Below, piece after piece: positions 6,235-38,982 of a stretch of DNA of 64,000 bases. Below the pieces are notes generated by a model. The model ran no database searches, was not told the origin of the DNA, and saw nothing but the letters and a program-made list of their open reading frames with translations. Position numbers and translations under genes: made by a program. The stretch is taken from positions 1-64,000 of the forward strand of contig CAMATH010000014.1 in NCBI GenBank assembly GCA_945860955.1. Direction: 5' to 3'. Within the stretch, counting starts at the first letter, position 1. Each line of letters begins with the position of its first letter. The stretch is from Planctomicrobium piriforme (GTDB lineage Bacteria; Planctomycetota; Planctomycetia; Planctomycetales; Planctomycetaceae).

Positions 6235-6345
6235 CGGAGATCTCTCGTTCGTCACAGTTCGCACGGGTCGAGTCGGGAATCGTTCCGGACTCGCCGCGAG
6301 CGACAATTGTACCGAGCGCGGTCGGAAATCGAACGGCTCAGCGCG

Positions 6346-6405
6346 CAGAGCCGCGCCCGTCAGAAAGCAGTTACTGGTTTCCGCATCCTGACGGGCGCGG
6401 CTCTG
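6346..6405. repeat. Perfect 18-bp inverted repeat between SDR gene and mfd
   Basis: The left arm (6346-6363) reads CAGAGCCGCGCCCGTCAG and the right arm (6388-6405) is its exact reverse complement, with a 24-nt spacer. It sits in the divergent promoter region upstream of mfd. No T-run follows either arm. It may be a palindromic repeat unit, an operator or an RNA hairpin in the mfd leader. Confidence 0.85.
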
Positions 6406-6519
6406 CCAGAACGACTCAACACCTGCCGCGCGGGGTATAGCCGATTCATTGATCTCTGGAATTCCCCGTCCCCTCCCGCAGTTCGACCGTTCCCGGTAAA
6501 CTGCGGCCCATCCACTCCC

Positions 6520-9500
6520 ATGTCCTCCGCCACCCGGAATGACGCGGAGCTTGCGGCACTGACGGAGGTGATTCGCCAGTCGCCCGGCTTCGCTGACGTG
6601 CTTCAGGCGCTCGACGCCGGACGGCCCGCCCTTGTCGACGGTGCCTGGGGATCGGCGTCCGCGCTCACCTGTGCCGCCCTTCTCCCGCCACAACAAGAGA
6701 CCGGCGATGCGACGGCATCTGTCGCCCCCGATGGCGGCCCCGTGCTGCTGATCGTTCTCCCCCGCATCAGCGACGTCGACGATTTCGCCGACGACCTCGC
6801 CGGCTTCGCGCGACGCACTCCGCTCGTCCTCCCCGCGTGGGAAGCGGTCCCCAGCGAGGAACGGGCCGACGATCCGGTGTTTGCCGGCCGAATCAGGATT
6901 CTGCGTGAATTCGACCGCCCGGTGCGAATGCCTGAACCGGTCGCCGCCAGCGCCGTCCCGGCCAAGTCCAAAGTCGGACCCGGCATTCGGGGCATGCTCA
7001 AACGGAAAAAGGGAGACGAAGCCGAGACTTCTCCGGCGGTCGCCGTTCCACAATCCGCCTCCCCTCCCCGACCCAAGCGGATTGTCGTCACCAGCATTGC
7101 TGCCCTGCTTCAGCCGGTTCCCGACCGGGCGGAACTCGAACGGGCCACCCGCACCCTCAAGGTGGGGGATACGCTCGAACCCGAGGATCTTGTTCGCTGG
7201 TTGATCGATCGCGGCTTTTCGCGCGTCCCCGCCATCGAGCTGCCGGGGGAGTTTTGTGTGCATGGCGGAATTGTCGATGTCTTTCCATTCGCCGAGACGG
7301 ATCCGGTCCGGATCGAATTCTTCGGCGATCAGATCGAATCGCTCCGCCGATTTGATGTCGAAACGCAGCGCAAGATCGAAGACCTCAAGACCCTGTCGAT
7401 GCTGGTCGCCGGCCGAAAAAAATCGGACGAACCGGCTGCAGAGGAGGCGAGTGAAGAAGACGACGAGGCGTTGATCGCGCTCGCCAATTTTGCCCGCCGA
7501 CGGTCGGCCCCTCCCCCAGCGGCCGTCACGGGGGAAGCTCACACCGCCGACTGGCTCCCGGCGGGAAGTTGGGTGGCCCTAGTCGACTTGGTCGAATTGA
7601 CCAACGAAGGCCGGCAGTATCTGCAACGACTGTCGAACCCGCGAGGGTACTACACGGTCGACGCGACACTGGCGCGATTGAATCGGCTGCCGATCGTGAC
7701 GGTCTCGGGTATCTCGGAACACGGGTATGAGACCTCCTGTCATCTGCGGGTCGAGTCGGTCGAGCGGTTTCAAGCCCCGGCGGCGGAGATTGTCGCAGAA
7801 CTCGATCAACTCGTCGCCGCCGACGAGCGGGTGCTGCTCGCCTGTCACAACGCCGGCGAGAAGCACCGGGTGACGGAACTTTTCGCTGCGTCGAAACTCA
7901 CACAGCATGGTCGCCTGCGGGTGTGCGAAGGGAGACTGGTACGCGGGTTTCGGTTGGTTGACGAACGGCTGATCGTTCTCAGCGATCACGAGTTGTTCCA
8001 CCGGAGGGAAGTCCGCCGAACGACCCGCAAACAAACGGCCTCCACCGCCGCCCGGGCGATCGACAGCTTCCTCGAGCTGAAGGAAGGGGATCTGGTCGTT
8101 CACCTGATGAAGGGGATCGCCCGCTATCGCGGCATGCAGATGCTGTCGAAAGACGATCAGCAGGAAGAACACTTGGTTCTGGAGTTCAAAGAGGGGGCGC
8201 GGGTCTATGTGCCGGTCTCGCTGATTCATCTGGTGCAGAAATACGTGGGAGGGGCGAAGTCGGCTCCCAGTCTGTCACCGTTGACGGGGACTGCGTGGGA
8301 GAAGAAGAAGCAGGCCGCAGCCGCCGCCATCGCCGACTTGGCGGGGGACATGCTCGCGCTGCAGGCGGCGCGCGATTCGAAACCGGGAATCGCGTCTCCT
8401 CCCGATTCGCACTGGCAACGTGAATTTGAAGAGGCGTTTCCCTACGACGAGACCCCCGACCAGCTCACCTCGATTGATGCGCTCAAGCAGGATATGCAGC
8501 GTCCCCGGCCCATGGACCGTCTGATCTGTGGCGACGTCGGTTATGGCAAGACCGAAGTCGCGATGCGGGCCGCGTTCAAAGCGATCGACAGCGGCCGACA
8601 GGTGGCGGTTCTGGTTCCGACCACAGTTCTCGCCGAGCAGCACTACCGCACGTTCAGCGAACGGATGGCCGAGTTTCCGTTTCAGATCGACGTGCTGTCC
8701 CGTTTTCGCACCAAGAAGGAACAGCGGGGTGTTCTGGAAAGGCTGGAAACGGGGACGATTGATCTGGTGGTGGGGACACATCGCATCGTCTCCCCCGATG
8801 TGAAGTTTTCGGACCTGGGGCTGCTGATTATCGACGAGGAGCAACGCTTTGGGGTCGAAGCGAAAGAGATGCTCAAGAAGCTGCGGCTGGAAGTCGACGT
8901 GCTGACCCTCACCGCGACTCCCATTCCCCGAACGTTGCATCTGTCGCTGTTGGGGCTGCGGGACATTTCCAACCTGCAGACGCCTCCGCAGGATCGGGTG
9001 GCGGTGGAAACGCGGGTCTGCCGGTATGACTCCGACCTCATCCGCCGGGCGATCGTGCGGGAACTGAATCGTGGCGGGCAGATCTATTTCGTCCACAACC
9101 GGGTCTACAACATCGAGACAATCGCCGACCAGTTGCAGGCGATTGTCCCCGAAGCCCGAATTGGAATCGTCCACGGGCAGATGGGGGAAGAGGAGCTGGA
9201 AGCAACCATGGTCGCGTTCGTGAACCACCGTCTCGACATTCTGGTGGCGACCACGATCATTGAGAGCGGGCTGGATATTCCCAACGCAAACACGATTTTC
9301 ATCCACCAGGCCGACAAGTACGGCTTGGCCGACCTGCACCAGTTGCGGGGCCGGGTCGGACGGTACAAGCACCGGGCGTACTGTTATCTGCTGCTGGAGG
9401 CGGGGCAGAGTCTGACGGGGACGGCGGCAAGGCGGTTGAAAGCGATCGAGGAATTCAGCGAGCTGGGGGCGGGATTCAAGATCGCGATGCGCGACCTGGA

Positions 9501-10065
9501 GATCCGGGGGGCGGGGAACATTCTGGGGACCGAGCAAAGCGGCCACATCGCCGCCGTCGGGTATGAACTGTATTGCCAACTGTTGGAGACCGCCGTCCGC
9601 AAACTGAAGCAAGAGCCGCTCAAAGAGACGGCGCACGTGGCGATTGACCTTCCGGTCGAGGCGTTTATTCCCACCGAGTACATACCGGCGGGCCGACCGA
9701 AAATCGAAGCGTATCGCCGGTTCTCGCGGATTGCGAGTTTTGAGGAGCTCGAGGAATTGACCGCCGAGCTGGTCGACCGGTTCGGCCAGCTCCCCGAGCC
9801 GGTGGAGAGGCTGGTTGAGTTGAAGCGGATCCAGCTTCTGGCGCAGCCGTGGCAGTTGGACGACATTCATCTGGAACCGGGGTTTCTGGTTCTGGGCTAC
9901 CGCAATCCCTTGCGGTTGAAGCAATTGGTACGGGCCTCAGGGAACCGACTGCGCGTGGTCGACCAAAGGAGCGCGTATCTGCCTTTGGCCGATGAAGTCG
10001 CGTCGGGACGCAAGTTGTTGGTGGTGGTAAAAACGCTGTTGCAGCAATCGGCCATTCCGGTGTAG
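6520..10065 (+). CDS. mfd: Transcription-repair coupling factor Mfd
   Basis: The 1181-residue protein is a DNA translocase that removes stalled RNA polymerase and recruits UvrA. The N-terminal UvrB-like part (about 1-350) contains an insert rich in Lys, Pro and Ala around residues 147-185. The RNA-polymerase-interacting and CarD-like region comes next (SFLELKEGDLVVHLMKGIARY). The SF2 motor carries Walker A GDVGYGKTEVAMRAAF, the DEEQRFG box, TATPIPRTLHLSL and GRVGRYKHRAYCYLL. The C-terminal TRCF domain contains YIPAGRPKIEAYRR. Length agrees with the family. The start is the ATG at which homology begins; the frame is open further upstream, through the inverted repeat. The gene diverges from the SDR gene and is followed by a PpiC-type lipoprotein. 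Confidence 0.98.
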   Translation: MSSATRNDAELAALTEVIRQSPGFADVLQALDAGRPALVDGAWGSASALTCAALLPPQQETGDATASVAPDGGPVLLIVLPRISDVDDFADDLAGFARRTPLVLPAWEAVPSEERADDPVFAGRIRILREFDRPVRMPEPVAASAVPAKSKVGPGIRGMLKRKKGDEAETSPAVAVPQSASPPRPKRIVVTSIAALLQPVPDRAELERATRTLKVGDTLEPEDLVRWLIDRGFSRVPAIELPGEFCVHGGIVDVFPFAETDPVRIEFFGDQIESLRRFDVETQRKIEDLKTLSMLVAGRKKSDEPAAEEASEEDDEALIALANFARRRSAPPPAAVTGEAHTADWLPAGSWVALVDLVELTNEGRQYLQRLSNPRGYYTVDATLARLNRLPIVTVSGISEHGYETSCHLRVESVERFQAPAAEIVAELDQLVAADERVLLACHNAGEKHRVTELFAASKLTQHGRLRVCEGRLVRGFRLVDERLIVLSDHELFHRREVRRTTRKQTASTAARAIDSFLELKEGDLVVHLMKGIARYRGMQMLSKDDQQEEHLVLEFKEGARVYVPVSLIHLVQKYVGGAKSAPSLSPLTGTAWEKKKQAAAAAIADLAGDMLALQAARDSKPGIASPPDSHWQREFEEAFPYDETPDQLTSIDALKQDMQRPRPMDRLICGDVGYGKTEVAMRAAFKAIDSGRQVAVLVPTTVLAEQHYRTFSERMAEFPFQIDVLSRFRTKKEQRGVLERLETGTIDLVVGTHRIVSPDVKFSDLGLLIIDEEQRFGVEAKEMLKKLRLEVDVLTLTATPIPRTLHLSLLGLRDISNLQTPPQDRVAVETRVCRYDSDLIRRAIVRELNRGGQIYFVHNRVYNIETIADQLQAIVPEARIGIVHGQMGEEELEATMVAFVNHRLDILVATTIIESGLDIPNANTIFIHQADKYGLADLHQLRGRVGRYKHRAYCYLLLEAGQSLTGTAARRLKAIEEFSELGAGFKIAMRDLEIRGAGNILGTEQSGHIAAVGYELYCQLLETAVRKLKQEPLKETAHVAIDLPVEAFIPTEYIPAGRPKIEAYRRFSRIASFEELEELTAELVDRFGQLPEPVERLVELKRIQLLAQPWQLDDIHLEPGFLVLGYRNPLRLKQLVRASGNRLRVVDQRSAYLPLADEVASGRKLLVVVKTLLQQSAIPV

Positions 10066-33354: not shown

Positions 33355-35358
33355 ATGAGCGCCTATCTGGTCGTTCGAGAGGGAACGCATTTTCAGGAGG
33401 TTCATCGCCTCATTCCCGGCAAGGCGATGACGATCGGTCGCGCGCCTTCCAATTCGATCGTCGTTCACGACGATATCTGCAGCCGGCATCATTGCGAAGT
33501 CACGGAACGGAACGGCGAATGGTTCGTTCGTGATCTCCAAAGCCGCAACGGAACGACGCTCAACGGAGAGCCACTGGAAGGGGAGGCCCCACTCGGCCCG
33601 GGCCAATCGATCAAGATTGGTCCCTGCGAGTTGGTTTTCACGTTCGACCTGGCGACCGTCTATTCGAGCGGTGATGCCGATCCCGAGGATCCGGAACGCG
33701 ACACGGCGGCCGACGTCGCGATTTATTCTGCGACCGTCCAGGAACCAACCATTCAGGGAGCCATCACCCGTAACGCCTACATTTCGGGTGACCGGACGAA
33801 GCAGTTGGAACCGTACCGCCCCGGGCGGGAACTGGCCGCGTTGTATCGGCTGGCGCTCGAAATGGGCAAAGCGACGAATTCCAAACAGCTCGCCGACGCG
33901 GTATTGAACGGGCTGGCCGCCGGGACATCGGCCGACATTTCGGCACTCCTGCTGTTGCCTGCAGCGGTGGCGTCGGCGGCCGATCCTGCGGATTTGACCG
34001 TTGTCGCCTTCCGGTCGCCAACGCAGCAAGAATATCAACCCGTCTCCGTCTATCTCTCGTCGAAGGTGCTGAGGAATCACGAAGCGATTCTGGCCAAGGA
34101 TGCCGAGGATGACAGCGCCCTGCGGGAGCGGGACAGCCTGGGGGAGATCTCGGTGAAGAGTGTGATCTGTGCCCCGATTCGCCACGAGCGAAAGATCTAC
34201 GGCCTGATTCACCTCTATTCCACGAATCCGGCGAAACCGCTGGAAGAAGATGATCTGCACTACACGCTGGCGGTCGCCGACCAGTGCGCGGGGGCACTCG
34301 ATCAGTTGCTGAAGCAGGAGAAGCTGGCCGAGGGGCTGGCCCAGTTAAGGAACGACAACGCGAAGTTGCGGGAACAATTGGGGATCGAAAGCGATCTGGT
34401 GGGGAGCAGTCCCAGCATGCAGACGCTGAAGATGAAAATCGGGCGGATCGCCCCAACCGACGCGACCGCGTTGATTCGGGGGGAAAGCGGGGTGGGAAAG
34501 GAGCTGGTCGCGCGGGCGATCCATATGTCGAGCCGGCGTCGCAACGGGCCATTCGTCTGCATGAACTGCGCGGCTCTCACCGAGAGTTTGCTGGAGAGCG
34601 AACTTTTCGGCCACGAAAAAGGGGCGTTTACCGGGGCGACGACGCGCAAGATCGGCAAGTTCGAGCAAGCGCACAAAGGGACACTTTTTCTGGATGAAGT
34701 GGGGGAGATGGGGGGCACAATCCAGGCGAAGTTCTTAAGAGTTCTGGAAGGGCATCCGTTTGAGAGAGTGGGGGGATCGACGCCCGTTCATGTCGATGTG
34801 CGGGTGGTGGCCGCGACGAACCGGGATCTGGAGAGGGCCGTGGAGGAGGGGCAGTTTCGGAAGGATTTATATTTCCGGCTGCAGGTGGTGGAACTGTACG
34901 CCGAGCCGTTGCGGGAACATCCCACCGACATCCCGCTGCTGGCCGATCATTTCCTGCGGAGATTCGCGGCGAAGACAGGCCGGCAGGTTCGGGGATTTTC
35001 GCCGGCGGCGATGGAAAAACTGACCGCGTATGATTGGCCAGGAAATGTGCGTGAACTTCAGAATACCGTTGAACGGGCGATGGTGTTGTGTCTGGGGGAT
35101 CTCGTGGAGGTTCATGACGTGTACCTGTCGGGGCTGGGGGGCGGGGAGACGTCGCGGCTGGCGGCGGCGGCCGTCGCGGCGGCCGAGCCGGGGACGTTTG
35201 GAGATATTTCGCTGGAGTCGCTCGAGCAGCAGCACATTTTGGGGGTGCTTGACCGAACCAATTGGAACAAATCGCAAGCGGCTCAGATTCTGGGTATCGA
35301 ACGGTCGACGTTGGATCGCAAGCTGAAGCGGTACCGCGTTTCGCGACCGGGCCGCTAG
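33355..35358 (+). CDS. FHA-GAF sigma-54-dependent transcription activator
   Basis: A 667-residue regulator. The N-terminal FHA domain (about 1-95; [29 protein letters not shown]) binds phosphothreonine. A GAF-like domain covers about 155-325. A coiled-coil linker leads to the AAA+ domain with Walker A GESGVGKE, an intact GAFTGA and Walker [14 protein letters not shown]-terminal Fis-type HTH ([22 protein letters not shown]) follows. It is expected to activate sigma-54 promoters in response to a Ser/Thr-kinase signal and a GAF ligand, a combination common in planctomycetes. No kinase gene is adjacent. A terminator follows. Confidence 0.96.
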
Positions 35359-35679
35359 AGTCAGTTGAGAGGCCCGATCTTTGTGGATCGGCGAAGGCCC
35401 ATGAGTCTTGTGTTCGCGAGTGTCCGACTGGGGTGGAGAGGGAAAGTGAACCCGGTTCCGGGTCATCCAAAACCGAGAAAATCCTCGGATTAGGATTTTT
35501 TTGTTTGACTTTCCCCAAAAAGTGCGAAGAATGTGAACTTGACATGGAAATCGCGTTGATTTCCACGGCCCACCCCACCCCCCCGCGGAGCCTCTCGAGT
35601 CCATCGAGAATCTTGGGCTCACCCTTGAGTTCCTACCCGATTTCAAGTCGCGATCAGTTTTGTGATGGAGAAGAGTTTT
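35359..35679. other. Intergenic region before small acidic gene
   Basis: Apart from the terminator at 35478-35502 I see no gene. The stretch after it, to 35679, must hold the promoter of the small acidic gene; I cannot assign clear hexamers. Confidence 0.4.
35478..35502 (+). terminator. Rho-independent terminator after the FHA activator
   Basis: Arms AAAATCCT (35478-35485) and AGGATTTT (35492-35499) enclose the loop CGGATT, and the T-run continues to 35502. It ends the transcript of the FHA activator gene. Confidence 0.75.
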
Positions 35680-36000
35680 ATGCCGAAAGAGGTTGGAGAC
35701 GACATCGACCACAAGAACCTGGACGACCTCGACTACGACTACGACGACGGCGCCACGTTCGACCTCGAGGAGTTCGCTGCCATGGGAATCAATCCGTCGG
35801 CGCCGACAACCGCACGGCCTGGATCGGAAGAGAAAGTTCTGATGCTGTCGGCCCGCTATGCGGCGGGAATGCCGTTGTGGCATGATGCGGACTGCTACGA
35901 TCACGGCCCGAATGAACTGCAGTTGATGGGAAATCACGGTCTCGCGATTCCCTCAGCCCCCCTCATCCCGCTCGACGAGTCGGATGAAGACGACCTTTAA
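35680..36000 (+). CDS. Small acidic protein of unknown function
   Basis: I do not recognise the family. The 106-residue protein is strongly acidic at both ends (DDIDHKNLDDLDYDYDDG near the start; LDESDEDDL at the end), with a neutral middle containing PGSEEKVLMLSARYAAGMPLWHDADCYDH. GGAGAAGAG about 8-14 nt upstream supports the ATG at 35680; an ATG five codons earlier is possible. It has its own strong terminator, so it is probably a single-gene transcript. Acidic mini-proteins of this kind may be DNA mimics or binding partners of basic proteins, but that is speculation. Confidence 0.7.
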   Translation: MPKEVGDDIDHKNLDDLDYDYDDGATFDLEEFAAMGINPSAPTTARPGSEEKVLMLSARYAAGMPLWHDADCYDHGPNELQLMGNHGLAIPSAPLIPLDESDEDDL

Positions 36001-36365
36001 TCCCATCGCCCCCTCCCGCACGTAAGCCATCAGTCGACCGGGCCAGCAATGACCGGTCGAGGACGGCGAGGGGAGGTGGCGGGATCGCAGCCAGCTTTCG
36101 ATAGGATTGGATCTGCGGATCGACCTGATCTGGCTCGCTGCATTCCCCCTGGGGTTTGCTTTTCGAAACTGTGCGTCGTTCCAGTATCTTCCTCGGGACG
36201 AACTCATTTTGATTCTGCCTCAACCCGCGTTCAATTTTTGAACGCGGGTTCTTTTTTTGGTTGACCCGCAGCGCCCCATCCTGCGATCATGGCGACTTCT
36301 ACGCACAACCATTTCCCGAGTTCACCGCGAATTCGCGGCACCCCCTGGTCCGTCGCCTCTCGACA
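36001..36365. other. Intergenic region before XPB helicase gene
   Basis: It contains the terminator of the acidic gene near its right end and no convincing gene. The promoter of the helicase-nuclease pair would lie between 36260 and 36365 or be read through. Confidence 0.4.
36222..36258 (+). terminator. Strong Rho-independent terminator
   Basis: Arms AACCCGCGTTCA (36222-36233) and TGAACGCGGGTT (36239-36250) are a perfect 12-bp match with a 5-nt T-rich loop, followed by CTTTTTTT. It ends the transcript of the small acidic gene. Confidence 0.9.
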
Positions 36366-37775
36366 ATGTCCGTCTCGGGTCACCGTCACGTTCCCCTCCG
36401 TTTCGATGCGGGAACCTTGCTGCTGAAGGGGGCGGGAAAGACCAATCCCAACGAGGCGACCGGGGGAATTCCCTGGCAGTGGGATCCCCGCGTCGCGGCG
36501 TGGCGTTGCGATGCCCGCCACTATCCCGATCTGGCCCCGGCCATCCTGGCGGGGAATCTGCCGCTCGATGATCAGGTTCCCGCATGGCAACCGATCCACT
36601 GGCCGCAAGTCAACGTTCGCCAACTGCGCCCTGAACAGATCAAAGCGGTCTCGGCCTGGCTCGCCGCCCGCCGGGGTTGCGTGATCATGCCGACCGGAAC
36701 GGGGAAGACCGAAGTCGCTCTGGAGATCATGCGTCAGACCGCGGTCTCGACGCTGGTCGTCGCTCCGGTGCGCGACTTGATGTACCAGTGGCATCGTCGC
36801 ATTCTCGAAAGTCTGGGTTACGACGCGGGAATCGTCGGGGACAACACGTTTCGCGTGCAGCCCGTTTCCGTAACGACCTACGACAGCGCCTGTATCCACA
36901 TGGAAAAGTTCGGCGACCGGTTTGGGTTGATTGTGTTTGATGAGTGTCACCATTTGCCCGGTGCCATGCGACGTGACGCGGCGGCTCAATCGGCCGCTCC
37001 CTTTCGACTCGGACTGACCGCGACTCCTGAGCGGGGCGATGGCCGGCATGTGGATCTCAATTGGCTGATTGGTCCCACTCTCTACGAATTGCCTCTCTCG
37101 GAAGTTCGTGGCGCGTCGCTCGCCGAATATGATGTCGTTCGCGTTCCCGTCCATCTCTCCGAAGAGGAGCAGACGCGTTACGATCTTCTGTCGCGTGACT
37201 TGCGCGACTATTTCGTCAAACGCACCCAGGACGACAAATCGTTCACCTGGGAGAAACTCTGTCGCGAGATGATGCACTCCCCCGAAGCCCGCCGAATGAA
37301 CCGGGCGTTCCGTGCCAAAGTCGCGATTGAAGACCGCGCGGAAGAGAAACTCCGCATCCTCGAAGATCTCTTCCGACTGCACGCAGGCGAACCGGTGCTG
37401 GTCTTTGTCGGTTCCAATGCGATGGCCCGCGACGTCTCCGTCCGGTTTCTCGTTCCCTGTCTGCTCAGTCATACCCGGAAAGAGGAACGTCTCGATTACC
37501 TCCGCGGTCTGGAATCGGGTGTATACCCTGTGCTGGTCGCCAACCAGGTTCTTGATGAAGGGGTCGATCTCCCCGAAGTGAAGACGGCGATTGTGATCGG
37601 CGGTCAGGCGTCGACCCGCCAGGCCCGGCAGCGACTGGGACGCATTCTCCGACGTTCGGGGAATGCGCGTGCCGTTCTGTACGAAGTCGTTTGCGTCGAA
37701 ACCGGAGACGAAGACCGCTCGCGCCAAAGGCGCAGTCACGATGCTTACTCGGGAACACGCACTCGCCGAATTTGA
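36366..37775 (+). CDS. XPB-type superfamily 2 DNA helicase
   Basis: A 469-residue helicase with Walker A MPTGTGKT (108-115), Walker B DECHH (192-196), TATPERGDGRH (motif III), and late motifs ANQVLDEGVDLP and RQRLGRILR. The run TTYDSACIHMEKFGDRFGLIVFDECHHLP is the signature of archaeal and bacterial XPB. An N-terminal domain of about 90 residues corresponds to the damage-recognition part. XPB opens DNA in nucleotide excision repair. The Met of MSVSGHRHVPLRF is chosen because homology starts there. The end overlaps the Bax1-like gene by 35 nt in another frame, a strong sign that the two products work together. Confidence 0.92.
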   Translation: MSVSGHRHVPLRFDAGTLLLKGAGKTNPNEATGGIPWQWDPRVAAWRCDARHYPDLAPAILAGNLPLDDQVPAWQPIHWPQVNVRQLRPEQIKAVSAWLAARRGCVIMPTGTGKTEVALEIMRQTAVSTLVVAPVRDLMYQWHRRILESLGYDAGIVGDNTFRVQPVSVTTYDSACIHMEKFGDRFGLIVFDECHHLPGAMRRDAAAQSAAPFRLGLTATPERGDGRHVDLNWLIGPTLYELPLSEVRGASLAEYDVVRVPVHLSEEEQTRYDLLSRDLRDYFVKRTQDDKSFTWEKLCREMMHSPEARRMNRAFRAKVAIEDRAEEKLRILEDLFRLHAGEPVLVFVGSNAMARDVSVRFLVPCLLSHTRKEERLDYLRGLESGVYPVLVANQVLDEGVDLPEVKTAIVIGGQASTRQARQRLGRILRRSGNARAVLYEVVCVETGDEDRSRQRRSHDAYSGTRTRRI

Positions 37776-38982
37776 CTACCGCCGCGGCATCGTCATCCCG
37801 GACCGGTTGACGCGTGCGGCGCACGCCCATTACATCCCCCTTGCCGAGCAGATGCTGCGCATTTACCGGGAGGGAACCGGCCGGTTGCGACGCGATCTCC
37901 ATCGGCAGGTCGACGCGTTGTTCGAACACGAAGACGATTGCCCGCTCCGCCGGGTGAAGGCGTTTTGCAAACTGCTGGACGACGCCGCCGAGTACGACCT
38001 CGACTCCTCGGGAAAAGCCGCCGAATTGAGGCAGCGGGTTTTTCGTCTCGCCGCCCCCCGGCATCCATTACGCCGCACGCGCAGTGATCAAATCCCCGGG
38101 GGGGAACGGACCGTCAAACGCGAAATCGGGGAAGAACTCCAGACGACGTGGAGCGCAATTGAGGCGAGCCTGTTTTCCGACGTCATCGAATTCCAGCGGA
38201 TGCTGACCTTTACCGGATACTCCTCCGCGTCGGCGTTTCTGTCGCGGTACAATGTCGCCCAGGTGCAGGTCGCGTTGTTCGACGCCATTCAACTGACGGT
38301 TTGGGCGAGGGAGGATTTCAAGACGATTTTGCGCTATGCGAAACTCGCCCGGCTCATGCATTCGATACTGCTGTTGCCGGACGGTACCCACCAGTTTCGA
38401 TTTGACGGTCCGGCGTCGATTCTGCGTGAAACCCGCCGCTACGGCTCGGCGTTCGCCCGGTTCCTTCCGGGCCTGCTCGCCTGCCGAAATTGGAAACTGC
38501 ATGCGGTGATGTCGACCCCCCGCGCGGGCTGGAGTCTGGCATTGGATCTGGCCGACACGGACGGGTTGCGGAGTCATGTCCCGCCCCCGTCGGACTTCGA
38601 TTCCGAGATTGAAGAACAGTTCGCCGACCGGTGGGACTCGAAACCGCGTGACGGTTGGATGTTGATTCGGGAAGGGGAAGTGCTGCACTCGGGTCAGAAA
38701 GTGTTCGTACCCGACTTCACGCTGAAACACCCCGACGGACGAAAGGCGTTTCTGGAAATCATCGGGTTTTGGACGCCGGAATACCTGGCAAACAAACGGG
38801 AGGTTTTGCGGACTTTCGCCGACGTACCCATCGTATTGGCGGTGGCGAACAGCGTACTCCATTCACTCGCCGACCTGCCGGCCAATATCGTCGTCTACAA
38901 AACCCGGTTGTCGGTCGATGAAGTTCTGGCCGCTGTCGCGAAGACTGCGGCATCCCTCGACTCGGCAGCGAAGTCCGGATGA
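37741..38982 (+). CDS. Bax1-like nuclease (DUF790)
   Basis: A 413-residue protein of the DUF790 family, whose archaeal member Bax1 binds XPB and cuts DNA next to the bubble. The N-terminal half is helical and may be the XPB-binding part. The C-terminal half has the PD-(D/E)XK-like site: VPDF (Asp325), then LEIIGFWTPEYLANK (Glu339, with Lys352 further on). The highly conserved IGFWTPEYL block is the family hallmark. The ATG is the Met of MLTREHALAEFDYRRG; this start lies inside the helicase gene. The product probably forms a helicase-nuclease complex with its neighbour for excision repair. Confidence 0.88.
   Translation: MLTREHALAEFDYRRGIVIPDRLTRAAHAHYIPLAEQMLRIYREGTGRLRRDLHRQVDALFEHEDDCPLRRVKAFCKLLDDAAEYDLDSSGKAAELRQRVFRLAAPRHPLRRTRSDQIPGGERTVKREIGEELQTTWSAIEASLFSDVIEFQRMLTFTGYSSASAFLSRYNVAQVQVALFDAIQLTVWAREDFKTILRYAKLARLMHSILLLPDGTHQFRFDGPASILRETRRYGSAFARFLPGLLACRNWKLHAVMSTPRAGWSLALDLADTDGLRSHVPPPSDFDSEIEEQFADRWDSKPRDGWMLIREGEVLHSGQKVFVPDFTLKHPDGRKAFLEIIGFWTPEYLANKREVLRTFADVPIVLAVANSVLHSLADLPANIVVYKTRLSVDEVLAAVAKTAASLDSAAKSG

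Follow-up and report, generated by a model that had tools for sequence, protein, structure and literature searches.

What would a helicase and a nuclease known together from Archaea do in a planctomycete, and why do their genes share 35 nt? The question is raised by the 64,000-nt stretch of Planctomicrobium piriforme DNA analysed here (the window), which carries on its plus strand an XPB gene running into a gene for Bax1, a DUF790 protein. Judged by its reading frames and residues, the gene pair is real and intact and looks functional, and it probably encodes a translationally coupled bacterial XPB-Bax1 helicase-nuclease heterodimer, which would open bubbles or forks in DNA and nick them.

The XPB gene (36366..37775, plus strand) starts at ATG 36366, with an in-frame TTG at 36261 as an alternative start, and encodes a 469-aa SF2 DNA helicase of the archaeal DRD type, identified through its reading frame, Pfam and PDB matches, tree position and residues. 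Four domains exceed their Pfam cut-offs, giving a DRD, an SF2 motor and an ERCC3 C-terminal domain: XPB_DRD (38.7 bits), ResIII (92 bits), Helicase_C, and ERCC3_RAD25_C (34 bits). The closest PDB matches by sequence are archaeal XPB proteins, namely XPBII from Sulfurisphaera tokodaii (E 2e-82) and XPB from Archaeoglobus fulgidus (1e-75), and the signature GxRFGLIVFDExHHLP, pointed out in the earlier note, is present as FGLIVFDECHHLP. Among the 65 XPB sequences of its clade (see below), the Walker lysine K114 and the DExH residues D192, E193, and H195 are invariant. So is W295, the aromatic wedge of the long thumb (65/65 in the clade, aromatic in archaea), and the thumb of S. tokodaii XPB (StXPB) aligns without gaps. 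The Arg-finger residues Q422/R423/R426 are found in 64 of the 65 sequences, with one gap. The RED motif reads RGD in the window, where R223 (60/65) and D225 (64/65) are largely kept in the clade and the middle residue is not acidic. Of the interface residues, E374 is invariant (65/65), its equation with StXPB E357 being based on a pairwise alignment that is offset by one residue, and D377 (StXPB E360) is acidic in just 38 of 65. The NCBIfam equivalog for the mycobacterial type (NF045503) scored 161.9 bits, short of its 610-bit cut-off. By its domain content, this XPB is thus of the archaeal type, with a DRD and a long thumb, unlike the mycobacterial type.

The Bax1/DUF790 gene (37741..38982, plus strand) starts at ATG 37741, with another ATG at 37663 as an alternative, and encodes a predicted structure-specific nuclease of 413 aa, identified through its reading frame, Pfam and PDB matches, structural model and residues. 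DUF790 (PF05626) matches residues 1-398 with 298.7 bits, the motif VPDF...LEIIGFWTPEYL claimed earlier is present, and the closest PDB sequences are again archaeal, those of S. tokodaii and A. fulgidus Bax1 (E about 4e-35). An AlphaFold model based on a 15-sequence alignment (mean pLDDT 84.4, pTM 0.76) aligns end to end with 6p4w, 6p66, and 8gy8; archaeal Bax1 structures were its only strong matches in the PDB (E 1e-26 to 9e-23, TM 0.64-0.70 by query), no other structure falling below E 0.01. Residue roles were taken from the A. fulgidus and S. tokodaii proteins (PMC7293015; PMC7672443), and their conservation was then scored in the clade. The check for lost nuclease residues proposed in the earlier note revealed no loss, as the triad E291, D325, and E339 (E275, D305, and E318 in A. 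fulgidus) is present in 86/86 clade sequences. The N-terminal site, formed in A. fulgidus by D133, E135, Y155, and N156 (PMC7293015; PMC7672443), has D147, Y170, and N171 invariant in the same 86 sequences and a variable second acidic position (E150). At the XPB interface, R97 is invariant and F101 is found in 85 of 86. The NCBIfam Bax1 equivalogs, which are species-narrow models (A. fulgidus, S. tokodaii), gave 153 and 128 bits and did not reach their 500-bit cut-offs.

Both proteins fall into one mostly planctomycete clade, with an SH-aLRT of 100 in each tree (67 Bax1 and 65 XPB sequences). The trees are congruent, with a mirror-tree r of 0.86 in the clade (0 of 2000 permutations as high) and of 0.77 overall, indicating that the pair travels together. 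A transfer from archaea, for which a phylogeny had been suggested, is neither supported nor contradicted: the branch leading to the clade is long for both genes (1.5 changes per column), and the clade joins the haloarchaea, though weakly (support 82), in the Bax1 tree and stands apart in the XPB tree. The archaea sampled are haloarchaea and two non-halophilic species with PDB entries and the deep branches are weak, so that the trees do not settle the direction of transfer.

Nor is the pair as unusual in a bacterium as the earlier note implied. DUF790 has been on record since 2005 in Archaea and Cyanobacteria, where it neighbours COG1061 helicases (PMC1189080), and the annotation of Deinococcus and haloarchaeal plasmids includes overlapping XPB-DUF790 pairs, which occur in other planctomycetes too. 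The implied rarity is therefore wrong, and the pair belongs to an already known family, widespread in planctomycetes and also found in Deinococcus and haloarchaea. Of the 402 relatives found when 84,980 species genomes were scanned, the best 80 are nearly all from Planctomycetota (Pirellulales, Phycisphaerae, Sedimentisphaerales); a few of these 80 bear other labels, including Verrucomicrobiota, Lentisphaerota, Acidobacteriota, Aminicenantes, Armatimonadetes, and more, some of them possibly misassigned bins. The DUF790 gene is present in 39 of 394 Planctomycetota genomes and in 3 of the 37 from the window's own family, the window's included, while a different, divergent type is found throughout the planctomycete families f2 and f3. 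Being patchy in its own family and missing from most Planctomycetota, the pair is dispensable. A cultured planctomycete with a pair of this clade is Rhodopirellula solitaria CA85 (L111). One planctomycete genome (G072) holds two different XPB-Bax1 pairs (L155 and L156), with overlaps of 14 and 41 nt.

In the window, XPB and Bax1 would form a separate transcription unit, since an intrinsic terminator at 36222..36250 (plus strand; 13-bp stem, loop of 3, T-rich tail) ends the upstream one. Terminator-like sites numbered 6, against 3.6 expected from shuffles, and this stem is by far the longest; a promoter scan remained at chance level. Upstream of the pair lie a gene for an FHA-GAF-sigma54 activator-Fis protein (33355-35358) and then, before the terminator, a 112-aa ORF without a Pfam match (35662-36000). 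No third gene is generally conserved beside the pair across the clade loci. An SNF2/SWIM helicase gene lies nearby in about 9 of 79 clade loci and a RecQ gene in about 6 of 79 (L095, L097, L102, L126, L077, and others), and a SWIM zinc-finger gene adjoins the haloarchaeal plasmid pairs L139 and L141.

The best-supported mechanism is, by analogy, that of the archaeal complex. XPB would act as a 3'-5' SF2 motor which, equipped with a damage-recognition domain, an R-x-D motif, and a thumb, opens double-stranded DNA where it is distorted or forms a bubble or fork. Bax1 would bind the other arm and nick near the junction of double- and single-stranded DNA with its PD-(D/E)XK-like site (E291, D325, E339). 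We infer that the two proteins form a complex with this activity, which would help to maintain the genome alongside UvrABC and Mfd. The transcription-repair coupling factor Mfd is indeed encoded in the same window, as had been stated, at 6307..10065 (plus strand; UvrB_inter, CarD_TRCF_RID, DEAD, and TRCF domains), outside the pair, and the survey for UvrABC that had been proposed found UvrA (several), UvrB, and UvrC elsewhere in the genome, all above curated cut-offs. XPB-Bax1 can thus only be an additional route, and a repair function cannot be assigned to it by elimination. The UvrA-like genes (C5 65888-72103, C155, C20, C2) comprise a canonical one, a tandem-double one whose open frame is 2454 aa long, and two that are more divergent. 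UvrC (G000:C105, L051:3810-5258; 482 aa by ORF call) has GIY-YIG, UVR, and RNase H-like parts and lacks the usual C-terminal helix-hairpin-helix region.

The earlier note saw in the pair the excision-repair complex of archaea. The helicase-nuclease identity and the catalytic residues bear this out, but the repair role is unestablished even in archaea (PMC1590041; PMC7690668), where deletion of xpb in T. kodakarensis causes only slight UV sensitivity (PMC7690668). Two damage-processing routes, as also proposed there, are possible in a cell with UvrABC and Mfd, though excision repair is only a presumed role of the pair. Processing of replication forks or recombination intermediates, with XPB-Bax1 cleaving forks or flaps instead of excising lesions, is quite possible as well, if somewhat short of probable. 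Halobacterium uvr mutants show zero residual dark repair of UV lesions despite XPB homologues, the Uvr proteins accounting for all of it (PMC1590041), which agrees with such a role, as do the forks and bubbles that are substrates of archaeal Bax1 (PMC7293015), and RecQ and SNF2/SWIM helicase genes adjoin the pair in several clade loci. These neighbours, however, are found in a minority of loci and are absent from the window, and the preferred substrates of StXPB are small bubbles and distorted DNA (PMC7672443). The preferred reading is still the heterodimer that opens and nicks bubbles or forks. Its boldest extension, a Planctomycetota-centred excision machine offering a second incision route beside UvrABC, in which the 35-nt dual-coding segment of XPB tail and Bax1 start couples translation and assembly, seems doubtful.

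The overlap of 35 nt noticed earlier is confirmed with ATG 37741: positions 37741..37775 (plus strand) are read in frame 0 as the XPB tail (AYSGTRTRRI and stop) and in frame +1 as the Bax1 start (MLTREHALAEF). What is new here is that exactly this overlap recurs despite diverged Bax1 proteins. Of 65 clade pairs, counted without the near-copy of the window itself and one duplicate record, 45 have a spacing of exactly -35 nt, the remaining ones ranging from -56 to widely separated. The 35-nt pairs fall in 34 Bax1 clusters (80% identity), and the median identity among their Bax1 proteins, compared pairwise, is 53%. With the same 35 nt recurring in 45 of 65 related pairs, the overlap is not due to chance. 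Outside these 45, the pair L081 keeps the -35 register at the junction, with the XPB frame broken upstream. In all 47 of the -35 pairs checked, Bax1 starts with ATGCTTAC, which doubles in XPB as (GA)T GCT TAC, encoding D-A-Y, and a conserved SDAYxGT tail is the C-terminus of XPB in the clade. No description of this conserved dual-coding junction and XPB tail was found in the literature searched.

Coupled production, which the earlier note took the overlap to imply, is likely, because the overlap is conserved and there are signs of an embedded ribosome-binding site. Bax1 would thereby be translated in step with XPB, and the two proteins, being made together, could assemble during their synthesis. 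The putative ribosome-binding region lies within the codons of the XPB tail, at 37716..37740 (plus strand; cgctcgcgccaaaggcgcagtcacg). Tail arginines are encoded by AGA or AGG in 65 of 158 codons (41%) in overlapping pairs and in 8 of 50 (16%) in non-overlapping ones, the AGR share of arginines in the rest of the genes being 11% and 5%, respectively. The odds ratio between overlapping and separated pairs is 3.7, with a Fisher p of 0.001 that is optimistic, as the sequences are related. Through this bias, stretches that are rich in purines and resemble a Shine-Dalgarno sequence (AAGGAG, AGGAGA) come to lie 5-15 nt ahead of the Bax1 ATG in the clade, as is expected if the tail arginine codons double as the Bax1 ribosome-binding site. 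It is a clade-level support for the putative region and not a direct one for the window copy, whose weak core, AAAGG alone, stands farther upstream of the ATG than the AAGGAG/AGGAGA of the clade.

The overlap could also be passive, two conserved protein ends being locked by each other's codons without any translational coupling. The XPB tail has a role or constraint of its own, because non-overlapping pairs keep SDAYxGT too (for instance, as RSRRRRDSDAYAGTKHQRRSS in L056), and the overlap has been lost repeatedly, its state changing 14 times on the clade tree. Yet the AGR bias before the Bax1 ATG is stronger where the genes overlap, the comparison being made among non-independent sequences, and the pairs of other lineages overlap as well, usually by 14 nt, which is 21 nt, or seven codons, shorter. 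A passive overlap is therefore possible but rather unlikely, and translational coupling is preferred.

A defence or restriction module, with the SF2 helicase and the PD-(D/E)XK nuclease cutting foreign or modified DNA, is improbable. XPB does match the PADLOC PbeA models (E 1.6e-49) and an NCBIfam DNA-phosphorothioation restriction model, and the pair is patchily distributed and often plasmid-borne in Deinococcus and haloarchaea. However, PbeA proteins have about 670 aa, the alignment spans the motor only, and the matches to archaeal XPB are far stronger (E 2e-82), all of which speaks against such a role. Bax1 has no PADLOC match, neither methyltransferase nor Dnd genes lie beside the window's pair, and a phage and IMG/VR search for the pair gave no match. 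Programmed +1 frameshifting into an XPB-Bax1 fusion, to which the +1 frame of Bax1, the two frames open across the overlap, and the ATT TGA C at the XPB stop in the window might point, can be rejected as extremely improbable, since the XPB stop codons of overlapping pairs are mixed (TGA 19, TAA 16, TAG 12) and hence form no conserved RF2-type site, and as few as 9 upstream codons are open in the Bax1 frame of some pairs.

XPB-Bax1 has been studied almost only in thermophilic archaea, in which genetics is hard and the repair role is unsettled, and by 2012 no such complex had yet been identified in bacteria (PMC3353954). A clade from mesophilic bacteria whose active sites are intact and whose hosts also have UvrABC would allow a direct test of lesion removal versus fork action.

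Among known systems, the bacterial XPB of the mycobacterial/Kineococcus type shares the XPB motor with the window, but it has another N-terminal domain, no long thumb, and no known Bax1 partner (PMC3353954). The "type B" planctomycete XPB-DUF790 pairs (families f2 and f3) consist of the same two genes and come from the same phylum, with about 28% (Bax1) and 40% (XPB) identity to the window, and often do not overlap or do so by 14 nt. In their Bax1 (L003-L015), the E291 column is hydrophobic (L/M/V) and a YxPxE motif lies nearby, which suggests a rearranged active site. The pairs on Deinococcus and haloarchaeal plasmids have the gene order, an overlap, and the catalytic residues in common with the window, but they form separate clades, with about 30% (Bax1) and 38% (XPB) identity and a 14-nt overlap in nearly all those seen. 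The archaeal XPB-Bax1 complexes (S. tokodaii 6P4F/6P4W/6P4O; A. fulgidus 6P66) share with the window the DRD, the two RecA domains, and the long thumb of XPB, the NTD, Cas2-like, and nuclease domains of Bax1, and the catalytic and most interface residues, at about 27% identity between the Bax1 proteins. In the window's clade, by contrast, the middle residue of the RED motif is G, S, or A and the thumb wedge is W in place of the archaeal F, and the window adds to the archaeal plan the C-terminal SDAYxGT tail of XPB, the 35-nt overlap, and a host that encodes UvrABC.
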